The notes under the pieces are model-generated. The model searched no databases. It was given only the letters and a program-made list of their open reading frames with translations, and was not told the origin of the DNA. A program made the translations under genes and the position numbers. DNA of 64,000 nt from Pararhizobium sp. A13 (GTDB lineage Bacteria > Pseudomonadota > Alphaproteobacteria > Rhizobiales > Rhizobiaceae), in NCBI RefSeq assembly GCF_040126305.1, contig NZ_CP149511.1, forward strand, positions 186,001 to 250,000. The letters are read 5' to 3'. Positions 30,407 to 45,713 of this stretch are shown one piece after another (the first letter of the stretch is position 1; every line of letters begins with the position of its first letter).

Positions 30407-31195
30407 ATGGATCTGAAATTGACGGACAAGGTCGTGATCGTCACGGGCGCGAGTTCGGGCATAGGGTTTGAAACGACAAAAAGCTTCCTGTCGGAGGGAG
30501 CGCTTGTCGTCGGCGTCAGCCGCGACATGCAGCCACTTGCCGCGGTGGCCGATCCCGGCCGCTGCGCCACGATCGAGCTGGATCTTGCCGTCCGGGGTTC
30601 AGAGGCGGCCGTTGCCGGCCTTGCATTGGAACGTTTCGGCCGGATCGACATCCTGTTCAACAATGCCGGGATCTGCCCGACCCGGACAGGATTCCTCGAC
30701 GTGAGCGACGACGATTGGGACCAGACGCTCAATCTCAATCTCGGCGGTTATATCCGCATGTCGCGTGCGGTATTGCCGGCCATGTTGCGGCAGGGAAAGG
30801 GCGTGATCGTTCATTGCGGCTCCGAAGCCGGACGCATGCCGCATCCGCTGCTGCCGGACTACAGCACGTCTAAGGCCGCCATAACCATGCTTTCAAAGGC
30901 GTTGGCCCGTGAGTTCACGTCGCAAGGCATTCGATCCAACGTTGTCGCGCCGGCGCATATTCGCACCGAGCTTTGGGACCGGCCCGGCGGCTTTCTGCAT
31001 GCGCTCGCGGAGCGCTACGGGACGTTGCCTGACGATGCCGTCAAGGCCTTTCTGAAAGATGCGCGGATACCCGCGGGACGACTTGGGACGGTGGCGGACG
31101 TGGCCTCCGCAGTCCTGTACCTCGCGTCGGAGCTTTCTGATTTCATCAGTGGCGACGTCATCAACGTCGATGGCGGCGTGCTGCCCACCACATGA
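30407..31195 (+). CDS. SDR-family dehydrogenase
   Basis: 262 residues: TGASSGIGFETTKSF, NNAG, Ser in HCGSEAG, YSTSKAA and SGDVINVDGG. ACAGGAGGA precedes the ATG at 30407, while the ORF stretches to 30302 without a ribosome site. Third SDR of this cluster and probably co-transcribed with the transporter (123 bp after the permease) and with the cupin gene downstream. Confidence 0.87.
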   Translation: MDLKLTDKVVIVTGASSGIGFETTKSFLSEGALVVGVSRDMQPLAAVADPGRCATIELDLAVRGSEAAVAGLALERFGRIDILFNNAGICPTRTGFLDVSDDDWDQTLNLNLGGYIRMSRAVLPAMLRQGKGVIVHCGSEAGRMPHPLLPDYSTSKAAITMLSKALAREFTSQGIRSNVVAPAHIRTELWDRPGGFLHALAERYGTLPDDAVKAFLKDARIPAGRLGTVADVASAVLYLASELSDFISGDVINVDGGVLPTT

Positions 31196-31218
31196 GACTA
31201 ACTCGATAGGAAAACGTC

Positions 31219-31605
31219 ATGTCGGATTTGGCAAACGATCAGCACATCAGCGAACTGCGACAAGAACTCGCTGAAGCTCAAACGAACGGATACGTTGGGC
31301 AGGTACTGGCAACCGAGACGAATGAAGTCCGCATCTGGAAGATATTGCTTAAGCCAGGCGAGCGCATCGGATACCACCGACACCAGCTAAACTACTTCTG
31401 GGTCGCGGTGAGTTCCGGCAAATCGAGGTCTCGGCTGTCTACAGGCGAAACGGTGGAGACAGAGTATACGCCGGGCGATTGCAGATATTTCAGCTTTGGC
31501 GCCGGCCAGCATATGACACATGACCTCACCAACATCGGCGATACCGATTTGCTTTTTACAACCGTCGAGTTGAAGAGATCGGCCAATCCGCCGTTGGCTT
31601 TGTAG
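31219..31605 (+). CDS. small single-domain cupin
   Basis: 128 residues. A RmlC-like cupin with the first motif represented by KPGERIGYHRHQLNYFWVAVSSG (His-x-His) and the second by GAGQHMTHDLTN. Function unassigned; stand-alone cupins of this size act as sugar isomerases, lyases or small-molecule sensors. It begins 24 bp after the SDR stop and ends the operon. Confidence 0.75.
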   Translation: MSDLANDQHISELRQELAEAQTNGYVGQVLATETNEVRIWKILLKPGERIGYHRHQLNYFWVAVSSGKSRSRLSTGETVETEYTPGDCRYFSFGAGQHMTHDLTNIGDTDLLFTTVELKRSANPPLAL

Positions 31606-31858
31606 GGAAGACGTCTATTTCGGTCCGATTCCACTTGTTGGTTGAAAAGTGGAGCGAACCTCTGGCGCTGGGCCGACGAGGCGTTCCAAATTAAGCCGCT
31701 TGCCAGGCAAGTTGGATTTCAAATTCTTCAGGTGATCGGGAGTCAAGCGCCGAACCTAGCCGCGTCGCGTAGTAGATTCATCGATGAACTGGCCACCCAA
31801 AACTGCGTGGTGTTCAAATGGCCATTGGCTGGCCATCTGAACAAGCCAAGCGCCGCAC

Positions 31859-32542
31859 CTATTGTTTGCGCTCTCTTATTTTTGGCAGGTTGCTCAAGAG
31901 AGATCCGCACGCCTTGCGAATGTGGCTAACCAGCAGCTCCGTCGCCAGCGCCACATTTCGCTCTCGACAAGCAGCAAGTATCTGCCGGTGCTCTCGATCA
32001 TCCACACCTGTGCCACCCGACAAGGTCAACTGAATGCGAAGATAACGTTCTATCCGATCGTTGACGGACCGGATGAGATTGAGCAGGAAGGGCTTGTCGG
32101 CATCCTCATAGAGACACGAGTGAAACTGCCAGTTCAATTCAGCCCAGCGAGCAACGTCGGTCTCACGCGCGAATGCATCGCAATATTCTTCGGCTCGCTG
32201 AAACGTACGGTCGGTCATGCGCGGTATCGACAGTCGTAGAGCATTGGCCTCCAACATGCCTCTGACTTCAAAAATTTCCGCGATCTCAGGATCGGTAATG
32301 CTCGTTACGACGGCCCCGCGATTTCGTTGAAACTCAACGAGACCTTCGGCTTCCAGGCGCTTTAGGGCTTCCCGGACAGGAATTTTGCTGACGTCAAAAA
32401 GCTTGGCTATATCATCCTGACGGATGGGCTCGTCTTCATCCAGGACGCCGGTGACAATCGCCTCGCGGATATATTTTGCGATGATATCAGAGGTCGGTGG
32501 CGTGTTGCCAAGGGATGGCAAATTCTGGGCTTTTAGCGGCAA
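31859..32542 (-). CDS. GntR-family repressor, FCD type, of the imino-acid cluster
   Basis: 227 residues. HTH: QDDIAKLFDVSKIPVREALKRLEAEGLVEF, followed by an FCD effector domain. It is divergent from the dimethylformamidase-like gene, and the gap between them has the palindrome ATCGTATACGAT, which recurs before the other transcription units of the cluster. It is therefore the likely regulator of the whole set. A partial site (TATACGAT at 32602-32609) lies close to its own start and would allow autoregulation. Confidence 0.88.
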   Translation of the reverse strand: MPLKAQNLPSLGNTPPTSDIIAKYIREAIVTGVLDEDEPIRQDDIAKLFDVSKIPVREALKRLEAEGLVEFQRNRGAVVTSITDPEIAEIFEVRGMLEANALRLSIPRMTDRTFQRAEEYCDAFARETDVARWAELNWQFHSCLYEDADKPFLLNLIRSVNDRIERYLRIQLTLSGGTGVDDREHRQILAACRERNVALATELLVSHIRKACGSLLSNLPKIRERKQ

Positions 32543-32624
32543 TGTTCACTCCATAATCGGCAGTCGCCCGACGCGTAAGGCGCATCGAATAACGTAGCAT
32601 ATATACGATCTCACTTCATGTGTC

Positions 32625-32646
32625 TTGACTCATAATCGTATACGAT
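32625..32646 (+). promoter_or_regulatory. operator/promoter 1 of the imino-acid regulon
   Basis: TTGACT (32625-32630) is followed by the 12-bp perfect palindrome ATCGTATACGAT (32635-32646), about 35 bp upstream of the dimethylformamidase-like gene. Here the palindrome sits inside the spacer, 6 bp closer to the -35 than in the other copies. Confidence 0.65.
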
Positions 32647-32681
32647 ATTCTATATAGGCGATACGAAGCGGATTGCGAGCG

Positions 32682-34868
32682 ATGAACGGGCAAAAAATAC
32701 CTGCACTGGTTGGATATGTTGAGCCTCTGAGTGCCGCACCGGGTGGCAGCTTGCATTTCAAGATCTCATCGCGAGGCGATCGCCCCGTCACCGGGCGGGC
32801 TCTTCGACTGATCTGCTGTGATCCCAACCCAGACGGCCCCGGCATAAAGACCGAGGAGGCCGACTTCGGTCTCGCCGACCAATATCCCGCGATGGAGCAA
32901 CAGGCCTATCTTGGCTCATGCGCATTCGGCCCTATTCCGGTTTTGAGCGATTATGCCGCGGTCAAGGTCGATCTGATGGTGATGCCGACTTTGCATTCCG
33001 ATTCCGCTCAGACGCTTTTCTCATTGCAGAATGCCGATGGGACCGCAGGCGTGGCATTGGTCGTCCGTGACAACAAGCTGTTCCTCCAGCAGTTGGGCAC
33101 GGAGCACTCCTATGAGGTGGGCGCCGGGTTGGACAAGGATTGTTGGTCCCGTCTCGAGGTCGCTTTCGATCTGGGCGGCGTCTCAGTGGTAGTCTCGCGG
33201 GAACCACAAAGAGCGGCCGACGACAAGAATGGCGTCAACCTTTCGCATATCACGAGCCGCGTGCTGGCCGGAGCCGATCATATCTGCTTCGCCGGCTTGT
33301 GGCGGGGGCACCCTGAACAGGCCTTCAATGGCGCGATCGAAAATCCATCGCTGAGTGTAACGCGTGTGGAGGCAGCAGCATCGGAGCAGGTGCCGGCGTG
33401 GGAGGTCATAGCCAACTGGAATTTCGGTGGAGACGCCCGTGAAACCTGGGTGGCAGACGAGAGGGAGAAGGAGCGGCGACTTTCATTGATAAACATGCCG
33501 ACCCGCGCCGTCAGGTCGTCGGCATGGTCCGGTCGAAATATGGATTGGAAACAGGCGCCGCTCGAATACGCAGCGATCGCCTTTCATTCCGACGATCTCA
33601 GTGATTGCGGCTGGCAGACGACGATCCAAATTGATGTGCCTGAGGACACGCGCTCAGGGGTCTACGGACTTGAGATAGATAACGGCGTCAGCAAGGATAC
33701 GATCCCGTTCTATGTCATCCCCGGGGAAAGAACAGACCGACAGAAGATCGTATTCCTGGCCCCGACGTTCACCTACATGGCCTACGCGAACTTCGCTCGA
33801 GGCAACTTTGCCGGCGAACTCGCGGAAAGAGTGGCCGCCTGGAATGCTTATCCGCACAATCCCGATGAGGTAGGTACCTACGGATATTCCACCTACAGCC
33901 GACATCCCGACGGCTCCGGCATAACCTTGTCGTCACGTCTGCGTCCCATCCTGACCATGCGCCCGCACTATCTCGTCTACTTCGATCCGAAGGGATCTGG
34001 CATGCGGCATTTTCCAGCGGACTCGCATCTGACAGATTGGCTTGAGGAAAAGGGCTTCGCCTTCGATGTGATCACGGATGAGGATCTCGATCGGGACGGT
34101 TTGGCCGCCCTGTCACCCTACGATGTCGTCCTGACAGGGACGCATCCCGAGTATCACACCCGGCGCACTGTCGAGGCCCTCATCGCTTATCGGGAATCCG
34201 GGGGTAACCTCATGTATCTTGGCGGCAATGGCTTCTATTGGAAGATCGGCCGTCACAGTGACATGCCTCACTTGATCGAGGTTCGACGTGCCGAAGGCGG
34301 AATGCGGGTGTGGGCAAGCCAGCCAGGGGAATATTACCATCAGCTCGACGGCGAGTATGGTGGCTTGTGGCGCCGCAATGGAATTCCTCCTCAGAAAGTT
34401 GCGGGCGTCGGGTTTACGGCCGAAGGAGGATTCGAAGGCTCTTATTACCTTCGGACTTCTGCCTCTTACCGGGACGACCTCGCATTTCTTTTCGAAGGCA
34501 TATCGCCTGATGAACGTATCGGCGACTTCGGATTGTCCGGAGGCGGAGCGGCCGGCTTCGAGATCGATCAGGCAGCGGCCGACCTCGGCACGCCAGATTT
34601 TGCGACGATTGTCGCTTTTTCCGAAGGCCACGGGACGTCGTTCCACACAACGTTTGAGGAACTTCTGCTGCCGGGCGTATTCGACGGAACACCGCGAGAG
34701 CACGGCGGCATAAGCGCCAACCTCGTCTACGGACAGTCTGAAACGGGCGGCGGTCTCTTTGCCGTCGGCTCGATCACATTTTGCGGGAGCCTTTCGCACA
34801 ACAACTACAACAACAATGTCTCGCGCCTCCTCGAGAATTGCCTGCGGAAGTTCCTGGCCGATGACTGA
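32682..34868 (+). CDS. N,N-dimethylformamidase large-subunit-like protein
   Basis: 728 residues. The C-terminal two thirds match the N,N-dimethylformamidase beta-subunit-like domain: FLAPTFTYMAYANF, STYSRHPDGSG, THPEYHTRRT. In Paracoccus dimethylformamidase a mononuclear iron is held by two Tyr and one carboxylate; Tyr365 or Tyr368, Tyr405 and Glu490 are the likely equivalents here (motif-based inference). Residues 60-230 look like a lectin/laminin-G-like sandwich. No small subunit is encoded beside it. The start at 32682 (ATG) is preferred over TTG 32673. It overlaps the next gene by 8 bp, so it works in imino-acid or amide catabolism rather than alone. Confidence 0.82.
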   Translation: MNGQKIPALVGYVEPLSAAPGGSLHFKISSRGDRPVTGRALRLICCDPNPDGPGIKTEEADFGLADQYPAMEQQAYLGSCAFGPIPVLSDYAAVKVDLMVMPTLHSDSAQTLFSLQNADGTAGVALVVRDNKLFLQQLGTEHSYEVGAGLDKDCWSRLEVAFDLGGVSVVVSREPQRAADDKNGVNLSHITSRVLAGADHICFAGLWRGHPEQAFNGAIENPSLSVTRVEAAASEQVPAWEVIANWNFGGDARETWVADEREKERRLSLINMPTRAVRSSAWSGRNMDWKQAPLEYAAIAFHSDDLSDCGWQTTIQIDVPEDTRSGVYGLEIDNGVSKDTIPFYVIPGERTDRQKIVFLAPTFTYMAYANFARGNFAGELAERVAAWNAYPHNPDEVGTYGYSTYSRHPDGSGITLSSRLRPILTMRPHYLVYFDPKGSGMRHFPADSHLTDWLEEKGFAFDVITDEDLDRDGLAALSPYDVVLTGTHPEYHTRRTVEALIAYRESGGNLMYLGGNGFYWKIGRHSDMPHLIEVRRAEGGMRVWASQPGEYYHQLDGEYGGLWRRNGIPPQKVAGVGFTAEGGFEGSYYLRTSASYRDDLAFLFEGISPDERIGDFGLSGGGAAGFEIDQAAADLGTPDFATIVAFSEGHGTSFHTTFEELLLPGVFDGTPREHGGISANLVYGQSETGGGLFAVGSITFCGSLSHNNYNNNVSRLLENCLRKFLADD

Positions 34869-35892
34869 GAAGAATAATTCCCAAGACGCACGCATCACCT
34901 TTCAGGAGCTGAAATCGCTCCTGAAGGCGATTTTCGTCAACAATCGCACCTCATCAGAGACAGCAGATATTCTGGCGGAGAACTGCGCCGCATGCGAACG
35001 AGACGGTGTGCTCAGCCATGGCATTTTCCGCGTGCCTGGCTATGTCGATTCACTCAGATCGGGTTGGGTGAATGGCCTGACGGTCCCCGATGTGGCGCGT
35101 CTGGGGCCGTCGTTCATTCGGATCGATGCGCGCAACGGCTTTGCCCAGAGGGCGCTTGCCTCTGCGGACCCGCTGATCCGACGCACCGTTCGCGAGGCTG
35201 GCATAGCCATTGTTGCTACCCGCAATTCTCATCATTTCAGTGCGTTGTGGCCGGATGTCGAGCCTTTTGCCTTGGCCGGGTACATGGCTATCACCGCGGT
35301 GAACGGACTTGCGAACGTGGTTCCTCATGGTGGTCGGCAGGCTGTTTACGGGACCAACCCCATTGCTTTTGCCGTGCCGGTTTACAATGCCCAGCCGCTG
35401 GTCATCGACCAGGCCACCAGCGTGATGGCGAATGGCGAGGTCCGTCTGCATGCTCTCGCCAACAATCCCGTTCCGGATGGGACAGGCGTTGACCGTGACG
35501 GCAACCCCACGACGGACCCTCACGCGATTTTAGCGGGTGGGGCACTGAACACTTTCGGTGGTTACAAGGGCTCGTCTATCGCTCTGTTTGTCGAGATTCT
35601 TGCGGGAGCGGTCACGGGCGGGCAATTCTCGTTCGAAAATGACTTCACCGGCTTTCCCGGAGCGCAGACACCAAAGGCGGGGCAACTCCTGATCGTGATC
35701 GACCCCAATTGGGGCGGTTCGACGAATTTTGAATCTCGTCTGGCGCTTCTCTGCGCTCAGCTGGCCGACGCTGGTCAGGATCGGTTGCCCGGTGCACGAC
35801 GGTTCACGAACCGTGCAGCCGCCGAGCAATTCGGCATCCCGATCGCAATGGATGAACTTCAGCGGCTTCGGACGCTGGCGAGCAAAGGCTAG
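34861..35892 (+). CDS. LDH2/malate dehydrogenase-family cyclic imine reductase
   Basis: 343 residues of the Ldh_2 family, with DGVLSHGIFRVPGYVDSL near the start (the Ser-His pair of the site), HHFSALWPDVEPFA and YGTNPIAFAVP. Members include delta1-piperideine/pyrroline-2-carboxylate reductases (DpkA-like), ureidoglycolate and sulpholactate dehydrogenases. The surrounding genes favour imine reduction to proline or pipecolate with NADPH. Some canonical mid-region (the IDxATS segment is present as VIDQATSVMA) looks shortened. Its start lies within the last codons of the upstream gene. Confidence 0.8.
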   Translation: MTEKNNSQDARITFQELKSLLKAIFVNNRTSSETADILAENCAACERDGVLSHGIFRVPGYVDSLRSGWVNGLTVPDVARLGPSFIRIDARNGFAQRALASADPLIRRTVREAGIAIVATRNSHHFSALWPDVEPFALAGYMAITAVNGLANVVPHGGRQAVYGTNPIAFAVPVYNAQPLVIDQATSVMANGEVRLHALANNPVPDGTGVDRDGNPTTDPHAILAGGALNTFGGYKGSSIALFVEILAGAVTGGQFSFENDFTGFPGAQTPKAGQLLIVIDPNWGGSTNFESRLALLCAQLADAGQDRLPGARRFTNRAAAEQFGIPIAMDELQRLRTLASKG

Positions 35893-35933
35893 TGAAATCC
35901 TAAGACCGTTTACTCAAATATGAAGGTTGCGAC

Positions 35934-36362
35934 ATGACGCTTGATAAAAACAGACTTGAACTGCGGCGGGGCCTGACCCCAGTGCAGGTGGACCAACTGG
36001 TGGACCTCTTTCAGCAGGAGTGGTGGACCAAGGGCCGCCAGAAAGCGGATGTCGAAAGGCTGATGTCGTACGCCGGGCCGATCTTCGCTTTCATCGATCC
36101 GCTGAACGGGGAACTGGTCGCCTTCGCGCGCGCCATGACGGACGGCGTCTACAAAGCCATGATCTTCGATATCATCGTCAAGGATACGTGGCGGAACACG
36201 GGGCTTGGTCGGCTCCTGATGGACACCGTCATGACGGATCCAGTCCTCTCGGAAGTCAAGCATCGCGAACTCTATTGCCTCGAGGAAATGGTGCCCTTTT
36301 ACGAAAAATGGGGCTTCACGGCCAATTTGCCCGGCCTCTTCTTCATGCGCCAGTCGTCCTGA
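35934..36362 (+). CDS. GNAT-family N-acetyltransferase
   Basis: 142 residues. The acetyl-CoA-binding motif A is VKDTWRNTGLGRLLMDTV, followed by FYEKWGF, the usual last strand of GNAT proteins. Start ATG 35934 with GAAGG upstream. In an amino-acid catabolic operon it may detoxify or label an amine; the substrate cannot be predicted. Confidence 0.85.
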   Translation: MTLDKNRLELRRGLTPVQVDQLVDLFQQEWWTKGRQKADVERLMSYAGPIFAFIDPLNGELVAFARAMTDGVYKAMIFDIIVKDTWRNTGLGRLLMDTVMTDPVLSEVKHRELYCLEEMVPFYEKWGFTANLPGLFFMRQSS

Positions 36363-36410
36363 GATGAGGCGATCTAGACTCGATAGAGGCACGGGACGTT
36401 GAGGCGACCA

Positions 36411-37577
36411 ATGACTACCGATCATACTGTTCTTGAAGCCGATTATGCCGTGATCGGTCTTGGAGTGATGGGCGCATCCGCGCTTTATTTTCTGTCTCGT
36501 TCTGGTGGGAAAGTCGTTGGTATCGACAAATACAGTCCTCCACACCGCCATGGGGCGAGCCATGGCGGCTATAAAGTGACAAGAGAGGCTGTCGCCGAAG
36601 GTCCCGCCTACCTTCATTTTGTCCGGCGCTCGAATGCGCTCGTGCGTGACCTCAAGCGCCACTACAACGTCAATCTGATGCAGCGTACTGGAACGCTAAT
36701 CATCGGATCAGAGGCCGCAACCAGCTCCAACAGTTTTCTGCACGATACCGTTCAGATCGCTCAAGCCAATGAGATTGAGCACAAGACCTTCTCCTCCAAG
36801 GACTTGAAGAAGCTCTATCCACAGCTCACAGGCGTGGCCAACGAAGACGCAGGTTACTTTGAGCCGAATGCCGGCTTCATCCGTCCTGAGCCATTGCTGA
36901 ACCTGCAAATCGCGCTTGCCAAGCAAGCCGGCGCCGAGATTTTAGAGAATACGGCGGTCACTCGGATAACACCGATCGCCGGCGGCGTAGAAATAGAGGC
37001 CGACGGATTGCGGATCCGCGCACGACAGGTCGTCCTCGCTGCTGGCAGGTGGGCGGACCATCTCCTTGGCGGTGGGTTTGCAAATCTACTGTCCGTCACC
37101 CCGCAAAGAACGTTCACGTTCAAAGCACTCGACACTGCCGCCTATCAACCGAGCAGGTTTCCGACCTTGATGTGGTTCCGCGAGAGCGTTAGCGGCGAAT
37201 GCGCGACTGTCTTTCCGCTCGACGGATCGGAGAATGGGGTGAAGTTTTTCGTGGCTGACACGGAGAGGGATCAGCGCATCGGCATGTCTGGCGACCAATT
37301 TTACCAGCATCACGTCCAACCGTTCTTCGGGGGCATTTCATCAGCATTGCTGGCATCGGAAACGTGCTTCTACACATCGACACCAGATCATGGATTTGTG
37401 CTGGATTGGCATCCGGATATTCCGGGTCTGTTTTTGGTGTCGGCCTGTTCGGGGCATGGTTTCAAGCACGCGTTGGGGATCGGGGAGACCGTAGCTGCCT
37501 TGCTTGCCGGAAAGGCGGTTCATGATCTATCGGCGTTCAGCCTGGAAAGATTTTCCGCCAGCCTGCCACGCCGGTAA
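36411..37577 (+). CDS. flavoprotein oxidase of the monomeric sarcosine/N-methyl-amino-acid oxidase family
   Basis: 388 residues. Dinucleotide loop YAVIGLGVMGASALYFL, then the covalent-FAD segment ETCFYTSTPDHGFVLD with Cys319 at the position that binds flavin in MSOX and MTOX, and SACSGHGFKHALGIGE near the end. The family oxidises secondary amines such as sarcosine, N-methyltryptophan, L-pipecolate or proline to imines, with H2O2. Here it would supply a cyclic imine for the reductases beside it. GAGG precedes the ATG at 36411. Confidence 0.86.
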   Translation: MTTDHTVLEADYAVIGLGVMGASALYFLSRSGGKVVGIDKYSPPHRHGASHGGYKVTREAVAEGPAYLHFVRRSNALVRDLKRHYNVNLMQRTGTLIIGSEAATSSNSFLHDTVQIAQANEIEHKTFSSKDLKKLYPQLTGVANEDAGYFEPNAGFIRPEPLLNLQIALAKQAGAEILENTAVTRITPIAGGVEIEADGLRIRARQVVLAAGRWADHLLGGGFANLLSVTPQRTFTFKALDTAAYQPSRFPTLMWFRESVSGECATVFPLDGSENGVKFFVADTERDQRIGMSGDQFYQHHVQPFFGGISSALLASETCFYTSTPDHGFVLDWHPDIPGLFLVSACSGHGFKHALGIGETVAALLAGKAVHDLSAFSLERFSASLPRR

Positions 37578-37606
37578 GCGCGCTCCACGAAAGGGGAGAA
37601 ACCATC

Positions 37607-37636
37607 TTGACTCGCGATAGATATCGTATACGATAT
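37607..37636 (+). promoter_or_regulatory. operator/promoter 2 of the imino-acid regulon
   Basis: TTGACT (37607-37612), 16-bp spacer, TACGAT (37629-37634) as -10, overlapped by the 16-bp perfect palindrome ATATCGTATACGATAT (37621-37636). It is the strongest site of the set, about 55 bp before the dehydratase gene. A bound repressor would cover the -10 directly. Confidence 0.72.
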
Positions 37637-37690
37637 TCGAAATACCAAAACTGATAAACGGTAAATTGGCCGTTAACGAGAGGGAGCAAC

Positions 37691-38698
37691 ATGAAATTCG
37701 ATCGGTTCTTGACCACAGTCGAGCTGCACACTTGCGGCGAAACCTTCCGCCTGGTCACCCAGGGGCTGCCCAAAATTCCGGGCAAGACCATTATCGAACG
37801 TATCGCCTGGCTCGAACAGAACGCCGATCATTATCGTCGGGCAGTGCTTCTGGAGCCCCGCGGCCATAAGGATCTCTATGGTGGATATCTGACCGAACCG
37901 GTCAGTCCCGAAGCCGACTTCGGCGTGATCTTTCTCAACAACATGGGATATAGCCCGCACTGCGGTCACGGCGTCATTGCCTTGGCGACCGCCGCTGTAG
38001 AAATGGGCTGGATTGATCGGAAAGCGCCGGAAACGAAGGTTGGCATCGATGTGCCTTGTGGCTTTATCGAGGCCTATGTCCAATGGGACGGTGAACGTGT
38101 CGGCTCGGTTCGGTTCGTCAACGTACCCTCATTCATTTTCAGCCGTGACGTGACCGTTCAGACGCCGACCTTCGGTGAGGTGACGGGCGATGTCGCCTAC
38201 GGCGGCGCCACATATTTCTACGTCGATGCCAGGAAGTTCGGCGTGGAAATCCGGGAGCACGACGCTCAGCGCGTCATGCAGCTTGGATACGAGATCAAGG
38301 CCGCCGTTAACGCCAAGATGCCGTTTGTGCATCCGGAAATCCCGGAGTTCAACGACGTGTACGGAGTGATGGTCTATGGCGATCCCCGGCACGAGGGGTC
38401 CACGCAGGCCAATTGCTGCGTCTATGGCGACCGAGCCGTTGATCGCTCGCCCACCGGCACTGGTACGGCCGGCCGAACTGCGCAGCTCTATCTTCGGGGT
38501 GAAATGGCCTCCTCCGACACGCTCGTCAATGAATCGATCATCGGCACGATTTTCAAAGGACGCGTGATTTCCGAAACGAAGGTCGGGGAACTTGATGCGG
38601 TCATCACGGAAGTGGAAGGCAGTGCGCATATTTGCGGCTTTGCTAACTGGGTGATCGACGAAGCCGATCCGCTCAAGTTCGGTTTTCGGGTGATCTGA
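37691..38698 (+). CDS. trans-3-hydroxy-L-proline dehydratase (proline racemase superfamily, Cys/Thr type)
   Basis: 335 residues. The first catalytic residue is present as Cys91 in SPHCGHGVIA, whereas the second Cys of proline racemase is Thr255 in DRSPTGTGTAGR. The Cys/Thr pair is the hallmark of trans-3-hydroxy-L-proline dehydratases (as in the human enzyme), which give delta1-pyrroline-2-carboxylate. The gene overlaps the following OCD-type reductase by TGATG at 38696-38700, and that reductase uses exactly this imine. Both points agree on the function. Confidence 0.88.
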   Translation: MKFDRFLTTVELHTCGETFRLVTQGLPKIPGKTIIERIAWLEQNADHYRRAVLLEPRGHKDLYGGYLTEPVSPEADFGVIFLNNMGYSPHCGHGVIALATAAVEMGWIDRKAPETKVGIDVPCGFIEAYVQWDGERVGSVRFVNVPSFIFSRDVTVQTPTFGEVTGDVAYGGATYFYVDARKFGVEIREHDAQRVMQLGYEIKAAVNAKMPFVHPEIPEFNDVYGVMVYGDPRHEGSTQANCCVYGDRAVDRSPTGTGTAGRTAQLYLRGEMASSDTLVNESIIGTIFKGRVISETKVGELDAVITEVEGSAHICGFANWVIDEADPLKFGFRVI

Positions 38699-39612
38699 TG
38701 ACGATCCAACGGTTCGATGCGACATCCACGGAGACCCTGCTTCCCTTCAAAATGCTTGTCGGGGAGCTGGAGAAAGCCGTGGCGGAATATGCTGCCGGTA
38801 AGATCGCCAGTCCGGAGCGGTTGGTCGTCCCTCTGGCGGCTGGCGGTGTCATGCTCTCCATGCCCGCCGGCGCTCAAGACATTGCAACCCACAAGTTGGT
38901 CAATGTGTGCCCTTCGAATTTCTCCCGCAATCTGGCGACGATCAACGGAGAAGTCGTGGCCTATGACGCTGTCACCGGCGTCTCTCTGTTCGCCCTCGAC
39001 GGCCCGACTGTCACGGGTCGGCGGACGGCGGCGGTAACGCTGTTGGCGATCAGCCGACTTCGGAAAACACCGCCGAAGGCTATCGCGATCATTGGCACTG
39101 GCAAGCAGGCGTCGACCCATGCGCAGGCGCTCTCATCCTTCTATCCCGGTGTCGACCTTGTCGTCGCCGGAATTTCCGAACAGGAGGAGGAGCAGTTTTG
39201 CGCCAGGCATTCTTCCTGCACCGTCAAGCCTTTTGCGGACCGCGATTGGTCACGTATTGACGTTGTCGTTACGCTGACCACAAGCAAGACGCCGGTTTAT
39301 GCAGAAGCGGCAGTGCAGGATCGGCTTATTGTGGGAGTAGGGGCGTTTACGCCGGACGCGGCCGAAGTGGGCAGGGAGACGATATTGGCTAGTACCGTTC
39401 TCGTCGACGATCCCGCCGGCGCGCGCCATGAGGCTGGTGATCTCATTCAGGCCGGCGTCGATTGGTCTGGCGTGATCTCCCTCGGCGAGGTGCTCCAGGG
39501 CACGGCAAATGTTGCAGGGCCAGTGTTCTTCAAGAGCGTCGGTTGCGCAGCCTGGGATCTCGCGGCCTGCCGAGTGGCGCGTGAGATGATTGCGGAGGGC
39601 ACGACAGGTTAA
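38698..39612 (+). CDS. delta1-pyrroline-2-carboxylate reductase (ornithine cyclodeaminase/mu-crystallin family)
   Basis: 304 residues. Features are PERLVVPLAAGGVMLSMPA, the NAD(P) loop IIGTGKQASTHAQAL and VGVGAFTPDAAEV of the OCD/mu-crystallin family. Its closest functional type is the LhpI-like ketimine reductase that turns delta1-pyrroline-2-carboxylate (and often piperideine-2-carboxylate) into L-proline or L-pipecolate. It is coupled to the dehydratase by a 1-base overlap, giving trans-3-hydroxyproline to proline in two steps. Confidence 0.87.
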   Translation: MTIQRFDATSTETLLPFKMLVGELEKAVAEYAAGKIASPERLVVPLAAGGVMLSMPAGAQDIATHKLVNVCPSNFSRNLATINGEVVAYDAVTGVSLFALDGPTVTGRRTAAVTLLAISRLRKTPPKAIAIIGTGKQASTHAQALSSFYPGVDLVVAGISEQEEEQFCARHSSCTVKPFADRDWSRIDVVVTLTTSKTPVYAEAAVQDRLIVGVGAFTPDAAEVGRETILASTVLVDDPAGARHEAGDLIQAGVDWSGVISLGEVLQGTANVAGPVFFKSVGCAAWDLAACRVAREMIAEGTTG

Positions 39613-39620
39613 CGCCTGCA

Positions 39621-39649
39621 TTGACTCCGGAAGACTATCGTATACGATA
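39621..39649 (+). promoter_or_regulatory. operator/promoter 3 of the imino-acid regulon
   Basis: TTGACT (39621-39626), 16-bp spacer, TACGAT (39643-39648), overlapped by the 14-bp palindrome TATCGTATACGATA (39636-39649). Spacing is identical to operator 2. It directs the ABC transporter operon. Confidence 0.7.
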
Positions 39650-39704
39650 TCCTAATATGCCTACGCTTGAAGGAACTTTGTGACAGCAGGAAACTGATAC
39701 CAGT

Positions 39705-39718
39705 CGACGTATACGATA
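39705..39718 (+). promoter_or_regulatory. secondary half-perfect operator before the binding-protein gene
   Basis: CGACGTATACGATA keeps the central CGTATACG and the right arm, while the left arm is degenerate. It lies 69 bp after operator 3 and 46 bp before the gene, so two repressor dimers could act together. Confidence 0.5.
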
Positions 39719-39763
39719 GCCGATATGCGAAAATAAAATGGATAAGAAAGAGAGGAACTGAAA

Positions 39764-40585
39764 ATGAAGAAAATGATCCCGCTTATGGCTCTTGCCGCTG
39801 CAACGATCTGCGGCTCGGCTGCCCATGCAGACCAACTTGACGACATTATCGGTGCAGGCAAGCTTCGTTGCGCGGTGCAACTCGACTTCCCGCCAAACGG
39901 CTCGCGTGATGCTGACAACAATCCGATCGGTTTCGACGTGGATTACTGCAACGACCTCGGCAAGGCGCTGGGTGTCGAAGTCGAGATCGTGGACACCCCG
40001 GAAAACGACCGCATCCCCGCGGTGTTGTCGGGCCGGGCTGATGTGGCCGTTGCCGTCGCCTCTGATACTCTCGAACGCGCGAAAACCGTGGGTTTCTCGA
40101 TCCCCTATTTCGTGTTTGAGACGATCGTGTTGGTTCGCGAAGATTCAGGCATCAAGGGACCGGACGGTATCAAGGGGCACCCAGTCGGCGGCCCGGCCGG
40201 CGCGTACGAAACGCTTGCGCTCGCCGAAGAGGTCAAAAAGATGAGCGATTCCAGCACGCAGTTGCTGACATTCCAAAGCCAGTCCGACACGTTCCTGGCG
40301 CTTGGACAAAAGCGCATCGATGCGACCTACACCACTTCAACGATTGCTGCGGCAATCATCGAGTCCGGCAAGTATCCGGGCCTGAAGGTGGTCGGAGCCG
40401 CTCCGGTCGATGCCGACTATTGCGCCCTGATCGTCAAGCGTCAGGAACAGGGCTGGCTCAACTATGTCAACCTGTTCCTGAACCGCCAGGTTCGCTCCGG
40501 TCGCTACGCGGAACTCTACAAGAAGTGGATTGGCGAGGATGCCGGCGCGGCGCCGGACCTCACCGTTGCCGGCGCATATCGATAA
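39764..40585 (+). CDS. polar amino-acid ABC transporter binding protein
   Basis: 273 residues, signal peptide MKKMIPLMALAAATICGSAAHA, then the SBP_bac_3 fold with GKLRCAVQLDFPPNGSRDADNNPIGFDVDYC and SGRADVAVAVASDTLERAK. It belongs to the His/Glu/Gln/Arg-type family and, by context, should bind hydroxyproline, pipecolate or a related imino acid. A very strong stem-loop follows. Confidence 0.9.
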   Translation: MKKMIPLMALAAATICGSAAHADQLDDIIGAGKLRCAVQLDFPPNGSRDADNNPIGFDVDYCNDLGKALGVEVEIVDTPENDRIPAVLSGRADVAVAVASDTLERAKTVGFSIPYFVFETIVLVREDSGIKGPDGIKGHPVGGPAGAYETLALAEEVKKMSDSSTQLLTFQSQSDTFLALGQKRIDATYTTSTIAAAIIESGKYPGLKVVGAAPVDADYCALIVKRQEQGWLNYVNLFLNRQVRSGRYAELYKKWIGEDAGAAPDLTVAGAYR

Positions 40586-40607
40586 CCAGTGTCTGTCTCA
40601 TCAGAAG

Positions 40608-40639
40608 GTGGCGCCCGATCGTAATCGATCGGGCGCCAC
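40608..40639 (+). other. 14-bp perfect stem-loop between binding protein and permease genes
   Basis: Arms GTGGCGCCCGATCG and CGATCGGGCGCCAC with a TAAT loop. Nothing resembling a T-run follows. It is in the 217-bp gap before the first permease gene and is the strongest hairpin of the window; expected to stabilise the binding-protein transcript and attenuate the rest. Confidence 0.75.
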
Positions 40640-40802
40640 TGGAGAGCTCAAATGCGTCTCCAAAAAGCGAGAGCGCTTTCAGCGCTTCCATCGCCAATGG
40701 ACACAAGGTCAAGCCGGCTCGCGAACACTTCTTATGCTCTTAAATTCGTATTTGCGCGCATGGCTGCGGCCCGCGGACGCTTACCGAGAATGAGGTAGCA
40801 AA

Positions 40803-41465
40803 ATGGACTATCAATTTCAGTGGAGGCCGGTCCTTCGCGCGCTTCCCGAGATGCTGTGGGGCGCTCTGGAAACGATCGAGATCGCCGGCCTGGCCATGGC
40901 GTTCGGGACGATTCTCGCCATTTTCCTGGCGCTCGGCAAACGGTCAGGCAAAAATTACCTGTCCTTGCCCGCCGACGTGTGGATCGAGACGGCCAGAAAC
41001 ACCCCGGCGCTCTTCCAGATCTACATGCTTTATTTCGGCCTGGGTTCGCTTGGCCTGCACGTTAGCTCCTATGCCGCCCTGTTGTTCGGTATCACCTTCA
41101 ACAATGCCGGCTACCTTGCCGAGACCTTCCGCGGCGGCTTCTCGGCCGTTCCGGAGACGCAGACGCGGGCGGCGCGTTCCCTCGGACTGGGGGCCGTGCA
41201 GACCATGTGGCATATCGTGATCCCGCAGATGCTGCGCGCGGTTTTCCACGCCATGACCAACCAGATGGTGTGGTCCATCCTGATGAGTTCCTTGGGGGTC
41301 ATTGTCGGCGTGACCACGGATCTTACGGGCGTCACCCAGGAGCTCAATGTCGTGACCTATAGAACCTTCGAGTATTTCTTCGTCGCGGCTTGCCTCTACT
41401 ACATCATTTCCAAGCTCTTCACGGTGTCGGCGCGCATCGTGGCTTGGCGCTTGTTCCGTTACTAG
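40803..41465 (+). CDS. polar amino-acid ABC transporter permease 1 (HisM/HisQ type)
   Basis: 220 residues with about five membrane helices. The family stretches are TIEIAGLAMAFGTILAIF, ETARNTPALFQIYMLYFGL and the EAA loop ETFRGGFSAVPETQTRAARSLGL. Partner of the permease encoded 9 bp later; together they form the heterodimeric channel. Confidence 0.92.
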   Translation: MDYQFQWRPVLRALPEMLWGALETIEIAGLAMAFGTILAIFLALGKRSGKNYLSLPADVWIETARNTPALFQIYMLYFGLGSLGLHVSSYAALLFGITFNNAGYLAETFRGGFSAVPETQTRAARSLGLGAVQTMWHIVIPQMLRAVFHAMTNQMVWSILMSSLGVIVGVTTDLTGVTQELNVVTYRTFEYFFVAACLYYIISKLFTVSARIVAWRLFRY

Positions 41466-41474
41466 GAGGCCGCT

Positions 41475-42128
41475 ATGTATTTTGGTGGATCATTCACGTG
41501 GGGCGACTTCCAGTTCCTGCTTTCGGGAGCCGTGACCACGCTCGCGATTACCCTCGCCGCCGTCGTGATCGGGACTGTCCTGGGCGTCTTGTTCGGCCTT
41601 GTGAGAGCAAGCGCTCCCTGGTGGATCGGCAACACGCTCGGCGCCGTCCTTGACGTATTCCGGTCCGTGCCGCTCCTCATTCAGCTCGTGTTGTTCAATT
41701 CGTTCAACAGCATGCTCAGGCTGAACTGGCCGACCTTTGCTGTCGGCTGCATATGTCTGGGAATCTACGCTTCGGCCTTCTGCACCGAGATCGTCAGAAG
41801 TGGCGTCGGTGCAGTTCCCCAGACGACACGCAGGGCCGCCCGATCTCTCGGTCTCAGCTGGCGGCAGGAACTGACCTCTATCACCCTGCCGATAGCCACC
41901 CGGGTCGTCTTTCCGAGCTGGATCGGGCTAACGCTCGGCGTGATGAAAGACACAGCGCTCGTCTTATGGATCGGCATCGTTGAACTTCTGCGGAGTTCGC
42001 AGATCGTAACATCGCGCGTTCAAGAACCCTTGCTGATCTTGGGCATCACCGGGCTGATCTACTTCGTAATGAGCTTTCCAATCGCCAGGCTCGGAAATCA
42101 ACTTGAGAAAAAGTGGGGCACCCAATGA
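41475..42128 (+). CDS. polar amino-acid ABC transporter permease 2
   Basis: 217 residues. Contains VTTLAITLAAVVIGTVLGVL, VFRSVPLLIQLVLF and the EAA loop EIVRSGVGAVPQTTRRAARSLGL. AGGAGG precedes the ATG, and its stop overlaps the ATPase start (ATGA at 42125). Confidence 0.92.
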   Translation: MYFGGSFTWGDFQFLLSGAVTTLAITLAAVVIGTVLGVLFGLVRASAPWWIGNTLGAVLDVFRSVPLLIQLVLFNSFNSMLRLNWPTFAVGCICLGIYASAFCTEIVRSGVGAVPQTTRRAARSLGLSWRQELTSITLPIATRVVFPSWIGLTLGVMKDTALVLWIGIVELLRSSQIVTSRVQEPLLILGITGLIYFVMSFPIARLGNQLEKKWGTQ

Positions 42129-42844
42129 TCGCAATTGAGAATGTACACAAGCAATTCGGCCCGCTGCACGTGCTGAAAGGCGTGGATCTGACGGTGAAGA
42201 AGGGCGAAGTCCTGTCAATGATCGGCGGTTCGGGGTCCGGCAAGTCCACGATGTTGATGTGCATAAACGGCCTGGAGGGCATCCAGCAGGGGCGCATAAA
42301 GGTCGATGGCGTGGAAGTTCACGCCAAGACCACGGACCTCAACAAGCTACGCCGCCGGATCGGTATCGTGTTTCAGCAGTGGAATGCATTCCCCCACCTC
42401 ACAGTCCTGGAGAACGTCACACTTGCTCCGAGGAAAGTCCTCGGAAAATCCAAGGACGAGGCGGAAGCGATCGCTATCGAGCAACTGTCTCACGTTGGAT
42501 TGAAGGAAAAGCTCGCGGTGTTTCCATCTCGCCTGTCCGGTGGACAGCAGCAACGAATGGCGATCGCAAGGGCGCTTGCCATGTCGCCAGACTACATGTT
42601 GTTCGACGAGGTTACCTCAGCCCTCGATCCGCAGTTGGTCGGCGAAGTTTTGGACACGCTTCGCATGTTGTCGAAAGAAGGGATGACCATGATCGTCGTT
42701 ACACACGAGATGCGGTTCGCCCGCGAAGTTTCGGATCGGATCGCCTTCTTCAAGGAAGGCCGTATCCACGAGATCGGTTCGCCGGAGCAGATATTCGATC
42801 ACCCCCAGAAACCGGAAACTGCGGCCTTCCTGAAGTCCATTTGA
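42125..42844 (+). CDS. polar amino-acid ABC transporter ATPase (HisP/GlnQ type)
   Basis: 239 residues, a complete NBD: Walker [10 protein letters not shown], signature [16 protein letters not shown], Walker [13 protein letters not shown] and H-loop VTHEMRFA. It powers the two permeases upstream. The ATG at 42125 is favoured over the GTG at 42113 since it is coupled to the permease stop. Confidence 0.94.
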
Positions 42845-42890
42845 ACACCGCAATCGCGTCCAGTCTTCTACGCAATCAAGGAACGAAAAA

Positions 42891-43919
42891 TTGCGCTCAT
42901 CCAAGATCGTCCACGTCGTCAGCTGCCATGCCGAAGGTGAAGTCGGCGACGTCATTGTCGGCGGCGTCGCGCCTCCTCCAGGAGCAACCATTTGGGAGCA
43001 GTCCCGCTGGATCGCCGAAGACGAAAACCTGCGCAACTTCGTCCTGAACGAACCGCGTGGCGGTGTCTTCCGGCATGTCAATCTGCTGGTGCCGCCGAAG
43101 AACCCGAAGGCGCAGATGGGCTGGATCATCATGGAGCCTGTCGATACGCCCCCGATGTCGGGGTCGAACGCGATGTGCGTCTCGACGGTTCTGCTCGACA
43201 CCGGGATCATCCCGATGGAAGAACCGATCACGCGCATGGTCCTGGAGGCACCCGGCGGTTTGATCGAAGTCGAAGCTGAATGCCGCAACGGCAAGGCCGA
43301 CCGTATCCGCGTCCGCAACGTTCCGTCTTTTGCTGACAAGCTCGACGTAAAGATCGAAGTCGACGGGGTCGGCACGGTAACCGTTGACACCGCATATGGC
43401 GGCGACAGCTTCGTCATCGTCGACGCCGCTTCGCTCGGCCTGAACCTCAGCCCCGACCAGGCGCGTGACATTGCGCGCATAGGCGTGAAGATTACAGATG
43501 CCGCCAACGAACAGCTCGGATTCAAACATCCTGCGAACGACTGGAGCCACATCTCCTTCTGCCAGATGACCGATCCTGTCGTCATGAAGGATGGTGTTCT
43601 GCGCGGCAAGAACGCCGTCGCGATCCGGCCGGGCAAGATCGATCGTTCGCCTTGCGGCACTGGCTGCTCCGCACGCATGGCTGTCCTCCATGCCAAGGGA
43701 CAGATGAAGGTCGGCGACAAGTTCGTCGGCACGTCGCTCCTGGACAGCGAGTTCCATTGCAGCATCAATCAGGAACTGGACATCAACGGCACGTCCGCAA
43801 TCAGCCCGATAATTTCGGGCCGCGCCTGGATCATCGGAACGAAGCAACTGATGGTCGACCCTGCCGATCCGTTCCAAGGCGGATACCGCGTCTCCGATAC
43901 CTGGCCGATGGACAATTGA
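42891..43919 (+). CDS. proline-racemase-superfamily enzyme, Ser/Cys type
   Basis: 342 residues, start TTG at 42891 with AAGGAA at good distance; the conserved N-terminus [14 protein letters not shown] begins only seven residues later, so no later start fits. The catalytic pair is Ser90 (PPMSGSNAM, Cys in proline racemase) and Cys255 ([12 protein letters not shown]). Ser/Cys members have been described as 4-hydroxyproline 2-epimerases and 3-hydroxyproline dehydratases. With the Cys/Thr enzyme at 37691 it would widen the range of hydroxyproline isomers handled. It ends the transporter operon. Confidence 0.82.
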
Positions 43920-43929
43920 GGCGTCCACT

Positions 43930-43995
43930 ATGCCGATAGTTAAGGTCGAACTCTTTCCGGGCCGCAGTCCGGAGAAAAAGGCAGAACGCATGTGA
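43930..43995 (+). pseudogene. 4-oxalocrotonate tautomerase stub
   Basis: An ATG 10 bp after the racemase stop opens the typical tautomerase N-terminus MPIVKVELFPGRSPEKKAE (Pro1 is the catalytic base), but a TGA stops it after 21 codons; the intact family is 60 to 75 residues. A broken relic of an aromatic meta-cleavage or related gene. Confidence 0.7.
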
Positions 43996-44025
43996 ACGCC
44001 CGGCGCGCAAGGCGACAAAATCGCC

Positions 44026-44054
44026 TTGACATGCACAAGATATCGTATGCGATG
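44026..44054 (+). promoter_or_regulatory. orphan copy of the imino-acid operator/promoter
   Basis: TTGACA (44026-44031), 16-bp spacer, TGCGAT (44048-44053), overlapped by TATCGTATGCGATG (44041-44054), two changes from the perfect palindrome. Geometry equals operators 2 and 3, yet no intact plus-strand gene follows; the fragments beyond it run on the other strand. Confidence 0.55.
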
Positions 44055-44210
44055 TCTGAAATCTTCGCGAATAAAGTCGCGCTCCTCCAATGCGTCACGC
44101 CCGACCAGCTCGAAACCGAGAATATCGATCCAGAAACGCAGCGACGTCTCGAGGGACGAAACGGTGATCCCGAAATGATGGACGGAGATGCCGGACGCAG
44201 CCTCACGCAT
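44055..44210 (-). pseudogene. glyoxalase/VOC-superfamily protein, 5' fragment
   Basis: From an ATG at 44210 the minus strand reads VHHFGITVSSLETSLRFWIDILGFELVGRD, the typical first module of VOC (glyoxalase/dioxygenase) proteins, and then loses similarity at about 44055 where the orphan promoter begins. The start overlaps the stop of the dioxygenase fragment by 8 bp, as in an operon. Confidence 0.7.
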
Positions 44211-44517
44211 TGCCGCGATCTTCCCGGAACAGATAGAGTGCCTGCTGCATGGGGCGGTCGGAGAAGGAGAAGAGAACGCTGTCCTCGTCGCTCTCATGCC
44301 GCACGTGATGCCACGACGGCACGACGAAGATATCGCGCTTGCCCCATTCGATGATCGTGTCCTTGCCGATATGTGTCCGGCCGCGCCCTTCGATCGGGAC
44401 AAAAACGGTGGCGTCCGTCGAGCGATGTGGAGACGTCGTCAACCCTCTGGGCAAGAGCTGTATGAAGGTCCCGATGGTCGCCATCGCGTGTACGGGGGAT
44501 GGTGCCGATATTGCCAC
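44203..44517 (-). pseudogene. gentisate 1,2-dioxygenase-like cupin, C-terminal fragment
   Basis: 104 codons on the minus strand with TIGTFIQLLPRGLTTSPHRSTDATVFV, EGRGRTHIGKD, IEWGKRDIFVVPSWHHVRHE: the last cupin of gentisate and related ring-cleaving dioxygenases, which are normally about 350 residues. The N-terminal two thirds are gone. Together with the VOC and tautomerase pieces it is the debris of an aromatic-degradation operon. Confidence 0.75.
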
Positions 44518-44666
44518 TCATCTCAAGGATCGTGAATTTGATCTCGTCGACCCTTGTCGCGCTAAAGGTTGAGATGGAGTTGCTGCCGATCTTGCAGATC
44601 GTCGCTTTGATCGTTTGTCAGCGAGGATATCTTGATATACTCCGAAGGCCCCCAAGGCGGGATGAG

Positions 44667-45713
44667 TTAGGTTCGCGTCCGGACACCGCTCGACCGTCTG
44701 CTCGCAACCGTTGTCAGTATCGCGGCGACGATGATGACGGCTCCGGTCGATGCTTGGACATAGAAGGATGGAACCTGAGCCAGCGTCAGCAGATTGTTGA
44801 TGACGCCGATCAAAAGCACGCCGCTTACGACGCCGATGATCGTACCCCGGCCACCGCCCAGGCTCACACCACCAATAACCGCGGCTGCGAAGGCACTGAA
44901 GATGATCCCTTGACCTTGCGTTGTCACCGCAGAGTCCAACCGCCCGGTCATCAAAATGCCCGCCAACCCAGCCAATAGGGCTGCGAAAATGAACGCCGAC
45001 CAAATCACTCTGTCCACTTTGATGCCAGCAGCCCGCGCAGCGTCTTCATTACCGCCGATCGCGTACAACGCTCGTCCATAGCGGTGATATTGGAAGACCA
45101 GGCCGACCACGATAGCAACAAGCACAAATACGAGCACCGCGACCGGGATTCCAAGCAGTTTTTCGGAACCGAGGTAAGTCAGTGCCTTGCCCGGTGAATA
45201 AATGGAACGGCCGTTGGAAATGATCAGAACGCCACCGCGCAGCAGCACAAGCAGACCCAAGGTCGAGATGAACGGATTGAGGCCAACCCGCACGACCATG
45301 AAGCCGTTGAACCAGCCGATGAATCCGGCGGTTCCCAATGCCACGAACAAACCCGCCCAGGCCGGTAATTCTATCCCCAGGCCGCCTGCTGTCGCGGGAA
45401 CCAATGTGACAGCCGCAAACATCGGCGCGAAACCAACGATGCCCTCAAGAGAAAGGTCAAGGCGACCAATAAGGACCACGAATGTCAGTCCAATTGTGGT
45501 CAATCCCAGCACGCTGATCTGCTCGAGAATATTGATAAGATTGATCGTCGTGGCAAAATTCGGCGCCACAATGGCGCCTACGATGACAAGCACGAGAAGC
45601 ACAGGATACATTGTGAAACCGTCGGCGACGAAAGCGCTACCAAAAGCGGAAAGGCGCGACTGTCCCAAATTCCGCTTTTCCAGTTTTGAGTTGCTCACCA
45701 TTTCCAAGCTCAT
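44667..45713 (-). CDS. sugar ABC transporter permease (RbsC class)
   Basis: 348 residues with about 9-10 membrane helices. Typical loops are ISVLGLTTIGLTFVVLIGRLDLSL and ALYAIGGNEDAARAAGIKVDRV. It is the last gene of a minus-strand transporter operon; its ATG overlaps the ATPase stop (45710-45713). Confidence 0.9.
   Translation of the reverse strand: MSLEMVSNSKLEKRNLGQSRLSAFGSAFVADGFTMYPVLLVLVIVGAIVAPNFATTINLINILEQISVLGLTTIGLTFVVLIGRLDLSLEGIVGFAPMFAAVTLVPATAGGLGIELPAWAGLFVALGTAGFIGWFNGFMVVRVGLNPFISTLGLLVLLRGGVLIISNGRSIYSPGKALTYLGSEKLLGIPVAVLVFVLVAIVVGLVFQYHRYGRALYAIGGNEDAARAAGIKVDRVIWSAFIFAALLAGLAGILMTGRLDSAVTTQGQGIIFSAFAAAVIGGVSLGGGRGTIIGVVSGVLLIGVINNLLTLAQVPSFYVQASTGAVIIVAAILTTVASRRSSGVRTRT

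Follow-up and report, generated by a model that had tools for sequence, protein, structure and literature searches.

What is an enzyme of the N,N-dimethylformamidase (DMFase) family doing among genes for the catabolism of cyclic imino acids? The question is raised by an island at 31859-43919 of the window, that is, of the whole stretch of 64,000 nucleotides analysed here from Pararhizobium sp. A13, a bacterium of soil or plants (NZ_CP149511.1, positions 186,001 to 250,000). A preliminary description of this DNA had proposed a cyclic imino-acid island whose dimethylformamidase-like enzyme may release an imino acid from an amide, and the present analysis supports that proposal; the genes it named were found again at their coordinates and in their families by the open reading frame (ORF) list, Pfam and the NCBI profiles. 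We read the island as a GntR regulon in which the dimethylformamidase-like protein (DMFL) would free a cyclic imino acid from an amide, and a dehydratase and reductases would then give L-proline. We put the probability of this reading at about 0.52. Apart from the regulator on the minus strand, all genes of the island lie on the plus strand.

DMFL (32682..34868) has 728 residues when its start is taken at the ATG at 32682, three codons inside the longest ORF. Its C-terminal domain, DMFA2_C (PF20254), scores 296.2 bits against a curated cut-off of 27, so the family assignment made earlier stands, but the closest solved relative is not the enzyme that gave the family its name: N-acetyl-(R)-beta-phenylalanine acylase (PDB 8i5a/8huy) matches residues 3-727, nearly the full length, with 579 bits, against 342 bits for dimethylformamidase (PDB 6lvb). 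For the large subunit of the Paracoccus DMFase, the available part of PMC7686228 gives Tyr399, Tyr440 and Glu521 as iron ligands, His519 as the essential catalytic residue, and Asn547. By alignment, counted by hand, these five correspond to Tyr368, Tyr405, Glu490, His488 and Asn516 of DMFL, and among 21 aligned sequences Tyr368, Tyr405, Glu490 and Asn516 are invariant, which bears out the Tyr/Tyr/Glu ligand set of the preliminary description. DMFL is thus predicted to be an amidohydrolase that carries an Fe(Tyr)2(Glu) centre, and it is probably cytosolic, since no signal peptide is evident by eye at its start. Note that N-acylation turns a cyclic imino acid into a tertiary amide, the class to which dimethylformamide also belongs, and that most aminoacylases handle such amides poorly. 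To our knowledge few natural substrates are known for the DMFase family, and the N-acyl-proline acylase activity described in old reports is not known to have a sequence. A literature search found no paper joining dimethylformamidase with hydroxyproline or with the beta-phenylalanine acylase, and none on proline acylase; dimethylformamidase together with acylase matched a single paper, which deals with thermostable enzymes. The accessible text of PMC10308929 mentions only that a gene for dimethylformamidase lies close to rhodopsins.

Is the company of DMFL conserved? One genome per species was scanned, 235 relatives of DMFL were confirmed, and the neighbourhoods of the best 80 were examined: 17 at 62-86% identity, 11 at 50-57% and 52 lower, the line at 62% being drawn after the neighbourhoods had been looked at. 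A module gene was counted as present when a match exceeded 45% identity over half of the query. In 17 of 17 loci of the top band, DMFL is accompanied by the GntR/FCD regulator (31859..32542, minus strand; Pfam GntR and FCD), a predicted LDH2-family reductase (34861..35892), a GNAT acetyltransferase (35934..36362; Acetyltransf_1), the first proline-racemase-superfamily enzyme, a dehydratase (PRS1, 37691..38698), a binding protein, two permeases and an ATPase. The flavin oxidase (8 loci), the second proline-racemase-superfamily enzyme (PRS2, 8 loci) and the OCD-family reductase (6 loci) are accessory. The neighbourhood survey had been set beforehand as a test, and the context of DMFL is kept throughout the close loci; of the suggestion that such proteins stand next to LDH2 and monomeric-sarcosine-oxidase (MSOX)-type genes, the first half holds in all 17 loci, while the MSOX-type gene is an accessory. 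The 17 loci span alpha- and gammaproteobacteria, with genera including Rhizobium, Agrobacterium, Shinella, Phyllobacterium, Mesorhizobium, Ancylobacter, Gluconacetobacter and Pseudomonas. Pairwise distances among DMFL, LDH2, GNAT, PRS1 and GntR correlate at 0.86-0.95 (one PRS1 row is partial), whereas the correlation with these five is 0.39-0.59 for the binding protein and the permeases and 0.71-0.83 for the ATPase. This difference indicates that the enzymes move as one and that the transporter has been swapped in part of the 17 loci.

The link between DMFL and PRS1 reaches somewhat further. In two kindred Paraburkholderia loci (L049 and L051, two of the 11 mid-range loci, with DMFL at 55-56%), DMFL adjoins PRS1 and LDH2 is present, while the regulator is by eye of another GntR type and the binding protein is branched-chain-like, below the cut-off. 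For the LDH2 protein of L049 the best solved match is the reductase that also comes first for the window's LDH2 (236 bits, next 133). Because both loci join the 17 in the trees of DMFL (support 0.86) and of PRS1 (a tree without support values), the DMFL-PRS1 link looks like a single old event that outlasted a change of transporter and probably of regulator. Co-occurrence was also counted in whole genomes: among 201 relatives, PRS1 (E <=1e-90) is found in two genomes, the same two that have DMFL above 80% identity, and 27 other genomes with DMFL-family matches at 43% identity or less have no such PRS1. A wider pairing of DMFL with LDH2 (L081, L085, L111 and L112) was considered and dropped: the LDH2 protein of L085 is closest to PDB 2g8y and so not of the same reductase type, that of L112 was scanned against NCBIfam alone, and none of the four loci is counted.

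Are the three operons of the island controlled together? The 12-mer ATCGTATACGAT, a perfect palindrome, stands at 32635..32646 between GntR and DMFL, at 37623..37634 upstream of PRS1 and at 39637..39648 upstream of the binding protein and transporter. These are the only three exact sites in the whole 6.36-Mb genome, where about 0.16 would be expected by chance from the base composition of the window and where the reversed control pattern has none. With up to two mismatches allowed, the window holds six sites, where 100 shuffles average 1.5 and never exceed 5; a further copy, GACGTATACGAT, lies near the transporter at 39706-39717. The core CGTATACGATA, searched with up to one mismatch on both strands so that a palindromic site may count twice, gives 106 matches in 360 kb of the 17 related loci, while 57 other loci with DMFL-family genes, 1117 kb in all, give 8. 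All 17 related loci have the core no more than 350 bases upstream of PRS1, and in 16 each it stands within that distance before DMFL and before the binding protein; L044 is the exception for both, and there DMFL comes after the transporter genes. Since the GntR gene is constantly present and in a constant position, we infer that its product likely binds the shared palindrome, and the three operons read as a single co-regulated set under GntR control. A degenerate operator, ATCGTATGCGAT, with one mismatch, was also seen at 44042-44053, after a TTGACA and just 3' of PRS2, near short relic-like ORFs on the minus strand, with a cupin-type fragment recognised by eye at 44203-44517; site and relics are possibly the leftover of another operon. 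In three of the four Pseudomonas modules (L045, at 13762-14985, L047 and L058) the island operator also precedes a flavoprotein gene. The L045 copy, the one scanned, is most like D-amino acid dehydrogenase, below the cut-off; this flavoprotein may replace the sarcosine-oxidase-like enzyme.

Which reactions would this set carry out? The second operon is of a known kind. PRS1 lies above the equivalog cut-off for trans-3-hydroxy-L-proline dehydratase (NF045511, 598.5 against 540), with the catalytic pair Cys91 and Thr255, and it overlaps by one base the OCD-family gene (38698..39612; lhpI in NCBI naming), which is assigned as a pyrroline/piperideine-2-carboxylate reductase (NF045512, 430.6 against 400). 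The preliminary description had confined the trans-3-hydroxyproline route to these two genes (37691-39612) and set the first operon apart. This separation is not upheld: the operator is common to all three operons, and the LDH2 protein, a predicted delta1-pyrroline/piperideine-2-carboxylate reductase, fits the route too, because its closest solved relative is delta1-piperideine-2-carboxylate reductase (PDB 1wtj/2cwh, 381 bits, next 141). In the available part of eLife e03275, both OCD and LDH2 (there MLD2) are named as ketimine reductase superfamilies, and MLD2 members near racemase-family genes are described as reducing the proline ketimine; the accessible text of PMC5144071 likewise names two unrelated reductases for the trans-3-hydroxy-L-proline route. 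PRS2 (42891..43919) belongs to NF047722 (635.9 against 550), with residues Ser90 and Cys255. Its nearest solved relatives (PDB 4k8l and 1tm0) fall in a cluster of mixed 4-hydroxyproline epimerases and trans-3-hydroxy-L-proline dehydratases, as far as the same part of eLife e03275 goes, so PRS2 is predicted to be a dehydratase of that type and/or a hydroxyproline epimerase. The oxidase (36411..37577) is of the MSOX/MTOX type, above the cut-off for N-methyl-L-tryptophan oxidase (NF008425, 309.5 against 257), and its Cys319 aligns, counted by hand, with the flavin-linking Cys315 of monomeric sarcosine oxidase, in agreement with the covalent flavin proposed earlier. Pfam scores for these proteins are 301 bits for Ldh_2, 36 for GNAT, 152 for DAO, 363 and 444 for the two Pro_racemase domains, 117 for OCD_Mu_crystall and, for the binding protein, 115 for SBP_bac_3. 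The LDH2 protein and DMFL stay below every NCBI profile cut-off.

The third operon would supply the substrate. It begins with the family 3 binding protein (39764..40585), followed by permeases at 40803..41465 and 41475..42128 and an ATPase at 42113..42844, which are assigned by their annotated Agrobacterium vitis homologues (amino acid ABC permeases at 80% and 77% identity, ATP-binding protein at 85%) rather than by a domain scan of their own. The permeases and ATPase are tightly packed and PRS2 follows 46 bases on; in the first operon the end of DMFL shares 8 bases with LDH2, GNAT comes after a gap of 41 bases and the oxidase after one of 48. It is from these gaps and overlaps that the translation units are drawn. 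The scenario would then be as follows. The periplasmic binding protein and the ABC transporter would import the substrate, and DMFL would act at the amide nitrogen of a cyclic imino acid that is N-acylated or amide-linked in another way, freeing the imino acid by hydrolysis. A freed compound of the trans-3-hydroxy-L-proline type would be dehydrated by PRS1 to delta1-pyrroline-2-carboxylate, which LDH2, and here also the OCD reductase, would reduce to L-proline, while the flavin oxidase and PRS2 would supply this ketimine pool from other imino acids. A proline dehydrogenase gene was found in the genome, by which the L-proline could be consumed. Outside the island the genome has three more proline-racemase-family genes (C1:1562105, C2:902678 and C3:251924), that on C1 having, about 6.5 kb away, a 1275-residue frame with a proline dehydrogenase domain.

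The PRS1 lineage itself has a distinctive residue. At position 89, which precedes the catalytic Cys91 by two residues, the window and all 17 loci have Pro, as do the two Paraburkholderia copies beside DMFL (L049a and L051a) and one of two copies of Agrobacterium vitis, the other having Ala; the residue is Asp in nine of nine outside copies (L049b, L130-L134 and L138-L140). Pro89 is a lead, not a proof, for a changed specificity of the dehydratase, and it may reflect common ancestry, since the Pro group is one branch of the tree.

If DMFL is an obligate step, what happens where it is missing? One answer comes from plasmid pAvCG78b of Agrobacterium vitis (NZ_CP056050), which like the island has the GntR regulator, LDH2, GNAT, the oxidase, the transporter and the same operators, with two PRS1 copies and three binding proteins. 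There is no DMFL in this cluster, a statement limited to the cluster as the rest of the strain's genome was not searched and may hold one; the single DMFL relative on the plasmid (E <=1e-100) has 35% identity and lies far from the cluster. In the same strand after LDH2, GNAT and the oxidase stands an M20-family amidohydrolase (TIGR01891, 329.9 bits against a cut-off of 153.75), which scores similarly to the acetyl-diaminobutanoate deacetylase DoeB2, below the DoeB2 cut-off. Unlike the island, the A. vitis module also holds an oligopeptide transporter and a gamma-glutamyltransferase, and neither OCD nor PRS2 was matched in it. That an unrelated amidohydrolase takes the place of DMFL while the module is otherwise equal would be expected if amide hydrolysis is a required step.

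Several observations weigh against our reading. The substrate of DMFL is one that we infer, and the presence of an acetyltransferase next to a deacylase is left unexplained. DMFase without its small subunit is inactive, according to the available part of PMC7686228, and no small-subunit candidate is evident among the called genes of the operon, a search that did not take in the rest of the genome. The equivalent of the catalytic His519, which is His in DMFL, is Gln in 3 of the 21 relatives (P0036, P0080 and P0087). The 17 loci are not independent, as several are close kin and two entries, L036 and G002, represent a single genome, and the M20 replacement is a single case, one examined out of three plasmid records with the same identities. 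Outside the clade PRS1 stands without DMFL in eight of eight examined loci, seven of them with OCD, so the known route needs no amidohydrolase. Five of these come from a phylum sample (n=398), in which PRS1 (1e-100) is found in six genomes, our own and five others. All five have OCD and four a regulator similar to that of L049; no DMFL or LDH2 was found within 20 kb, nor any DMFL match in the genome at 1e-20, in a search that contained no positive genome though the same query gave matches in other searches. DMFL (1e-150) occurs in 4 of the 398 and overlaps with PRS1 in our own genome only. The other three come from plasmids, where 10 records have a PRS1 relative and four were examined: the loci of Paraburkholderia sprentiae, Rhizobium leguminosarum and Burkholderia cenocepacia have no DMFL, and that of R. 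leguminosarum also no OCD. In this sample, then, PRS1 usually goes with OCD, and its combination with LDH2 and DMFL is the variant. Nor does the binding protein help. The binding proteins of the module (18) and of A. vitis (three) keep the carboxylate Arg and have no Asp at the site where five amino-acid binders of Escherichia coli (HisJ, ArgT, GlnH, ArtJ and ArtI) carry it, the four rows read out having Thr. Among seven distinct distant controls, the Asp is present in L051, L111, L112 and L157 and replaced by Ser in L052 and in both proteins of L133. As L133 has PRS1 and OCD and no DMFL, the missing Asp was dropped as a sign of an N-acylated ligand and says nothing on N-acylation.

Then why is an acetyltransferase kept in the module? 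GNAT presumably acts in the same pathway as DMFL. One explanation is a protection cycle, in which free hydroxyproline is imported, a toxic imino acid or the ketimine's open-chain amine is acetylated by GNAT, and DMFL takes the acetyl group off again once the route has capacity for it. GNAT adjoins DMFL and LDH2 in 17 of 17 loci, it remains with LDH2 beside a different amidohydrolase in A. vitis, and the binding-protein comparison gives no preference for an N-acylated ligand. However, no GNAT match was found in L049 and L051, the Paraburkholderia loci with DMFL, PRS1 and LDH2, and membership of the GNAT family names no substrate; we regard such a cycle as unlikely. Among the 120 of 162 GNAT relatives listed, the full-length ones have either at least 65% or about 53% identity and less, and seven relatives at 37-45% share no common context that suggests imino acids, two of them sitting behind amino-acid ABC genes. 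In Agrobacterium tumefaciens pAt2 (L141, 14992-16648) a GNAT gene adjoins one of the N-methyltryptophan-oxidase type, with no other module genes annotated nearby.

A second explanation, to which we give an equally small chance, is that DMFL cleaves peptide bonds before hydroxyproline, for example in pieces of peptide antibiotics or proteins that contain hydroxyproline, and not a small N-acyl group. The A. vitis module would suit it, with its somewhat dipeptidase-like M20 metallopeptidase, oligopeptide transporter and gamma-glutamyltransferase; one scanned DMFL relative (L110) lies near an M1 peptidase, and the available part of PMC5144071 proposes peptide antibiotics as the natural source of free hydroxyprolines. 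Against it, the binding protein of the window is of the small amino-acid type, and DMFase, a member of the family, acts on small formamides in the part of PMC7686228 at hand.

It is also conceivable, and rather improbable in our view, that DMFL handles an unrelated amide of the same habitat and is merely co-regulated with the imino-acid genes. PRS1 is lacking beside DMFL relatives in 9 of the 11 loci at 50-57% identity and in all 52 below 50%, some of these loci ending at contig ends; within the clade, though, the tie of DMFL to PRS1 and LDH2 outlasts the exchange of the transporter. Relatives outside the module occur in varied contexts, a further point that weighs against our main reading. 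Nine chosen neighbours (eight of 16 listed and one from L112) comprise two amidases, two class III aminotransferases, an Amidohydro_3 protein, an asparaginase-family protein, the M1 peptidase of L110, a TauD dioxygenase and a PLP-dependent enzyme, which fits, without proving it, the idea that members of the family hydrolyse amides and differ in their substrates. In the Burkholderiales loci L052-L057, L060 and L061 DMFL relatives adjoin ABC transporter genes. Scans in L052 identified a class III aminotransferase, a LacI regulator and a binding protein of the branched-chain type, all belonging to ORF clusters that recur in eight loci; this context would suit N-acyl-beta-amino acids. On Paraburkholderia phymatum pBPHY02 (L137, 9163-11011) a DMFL relative is split by IS630, with a class III aminotransferase and LacI nearby, as in L052. 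The imine reductase DpkA, like the LDH2 protein of the island, belongs to the LDH2 family. Least probable of all is that the first operon serves N-methylated amino acids, DMFL cutting an N-acyl-N-methyl amide and the product being processed by the oxidase and by LDH2, taken here as an imine reductase that also accepts N-methyl amino acids: the oxidase is of a sarcosine-oxidase-like family and DpkA is used in making N-alkylated amino acids (PMC7356990, available part), but the oxidase is absent from 9 of the 17 loci and PRS1 from none.

How far, then, does the proposed GntR regulon with an amide-cleaving DMFL depart from known systems? With the trans-3-hydroxy-L-proline clusters, as described in the accessible parts of eLife 2014 e03275 and PMC5144071, it has in common the dehydratase, a reductase of the OCD or LDH2 type, and an ABC transporter and regulator beside them; it differs by the DMFase-family amidohydrolase, by GNAT and by Pro in place of Asp at position 89 of PRS1. 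N-acetyl-(R)-beta-phenylalanine acylase, though the nearest solved sequence to DMFL, has an amide of a beta-amino acid as its named substrate, whereas the neighbours of DMFL act on cyclic imino acids. The island thus reads as a hydroxyproline pathway of a known kind, to which a predicted amide-hydrolysing branch, new to such pathways, is joined. The stronger proposal, an undescribed catabolic route whose substrates are cyclic imino acids in N-acylated, tertiary-amide form, that is started by an iron(Tyr)2Glu amidohydrolase and to which the Pro89 dehydratase lineage is co-adapted, is put forward tentatively, at somewhat less than even odds. If it is true, hydroxyproline catabolism has an amide-hydrolysing entry masked by the annotation 'N,N-dimethylformamidase', and a branch of that family would gain a natural substrate class and provide a candidate gene for N-acyl-proline acylase activity. 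The context of DMFL links one clade of the DMFase family to imino-acid metabolism with testable substrates, and the operator offers a read-out: compounds that induce the three promoters would be the substrates of the pathway or close to them.

As for the surroundings, an Rfam scan of 30000-46000 gave no match and a tRNA search across the whole window found none. Directly before the island, at 30407-31605, lie genes for an SDR-type oxidoreductase and a small cupin-like protein without the island operator; in the 17 related loci the cupin-like protein has no match and the oxidoreductase only matches at 30-36% identity. Three sugar-type ABC transporter clusters, placed by eye from their ORF starts, surround the island at 26780-30281, 44670-48306 and 53057-56912.

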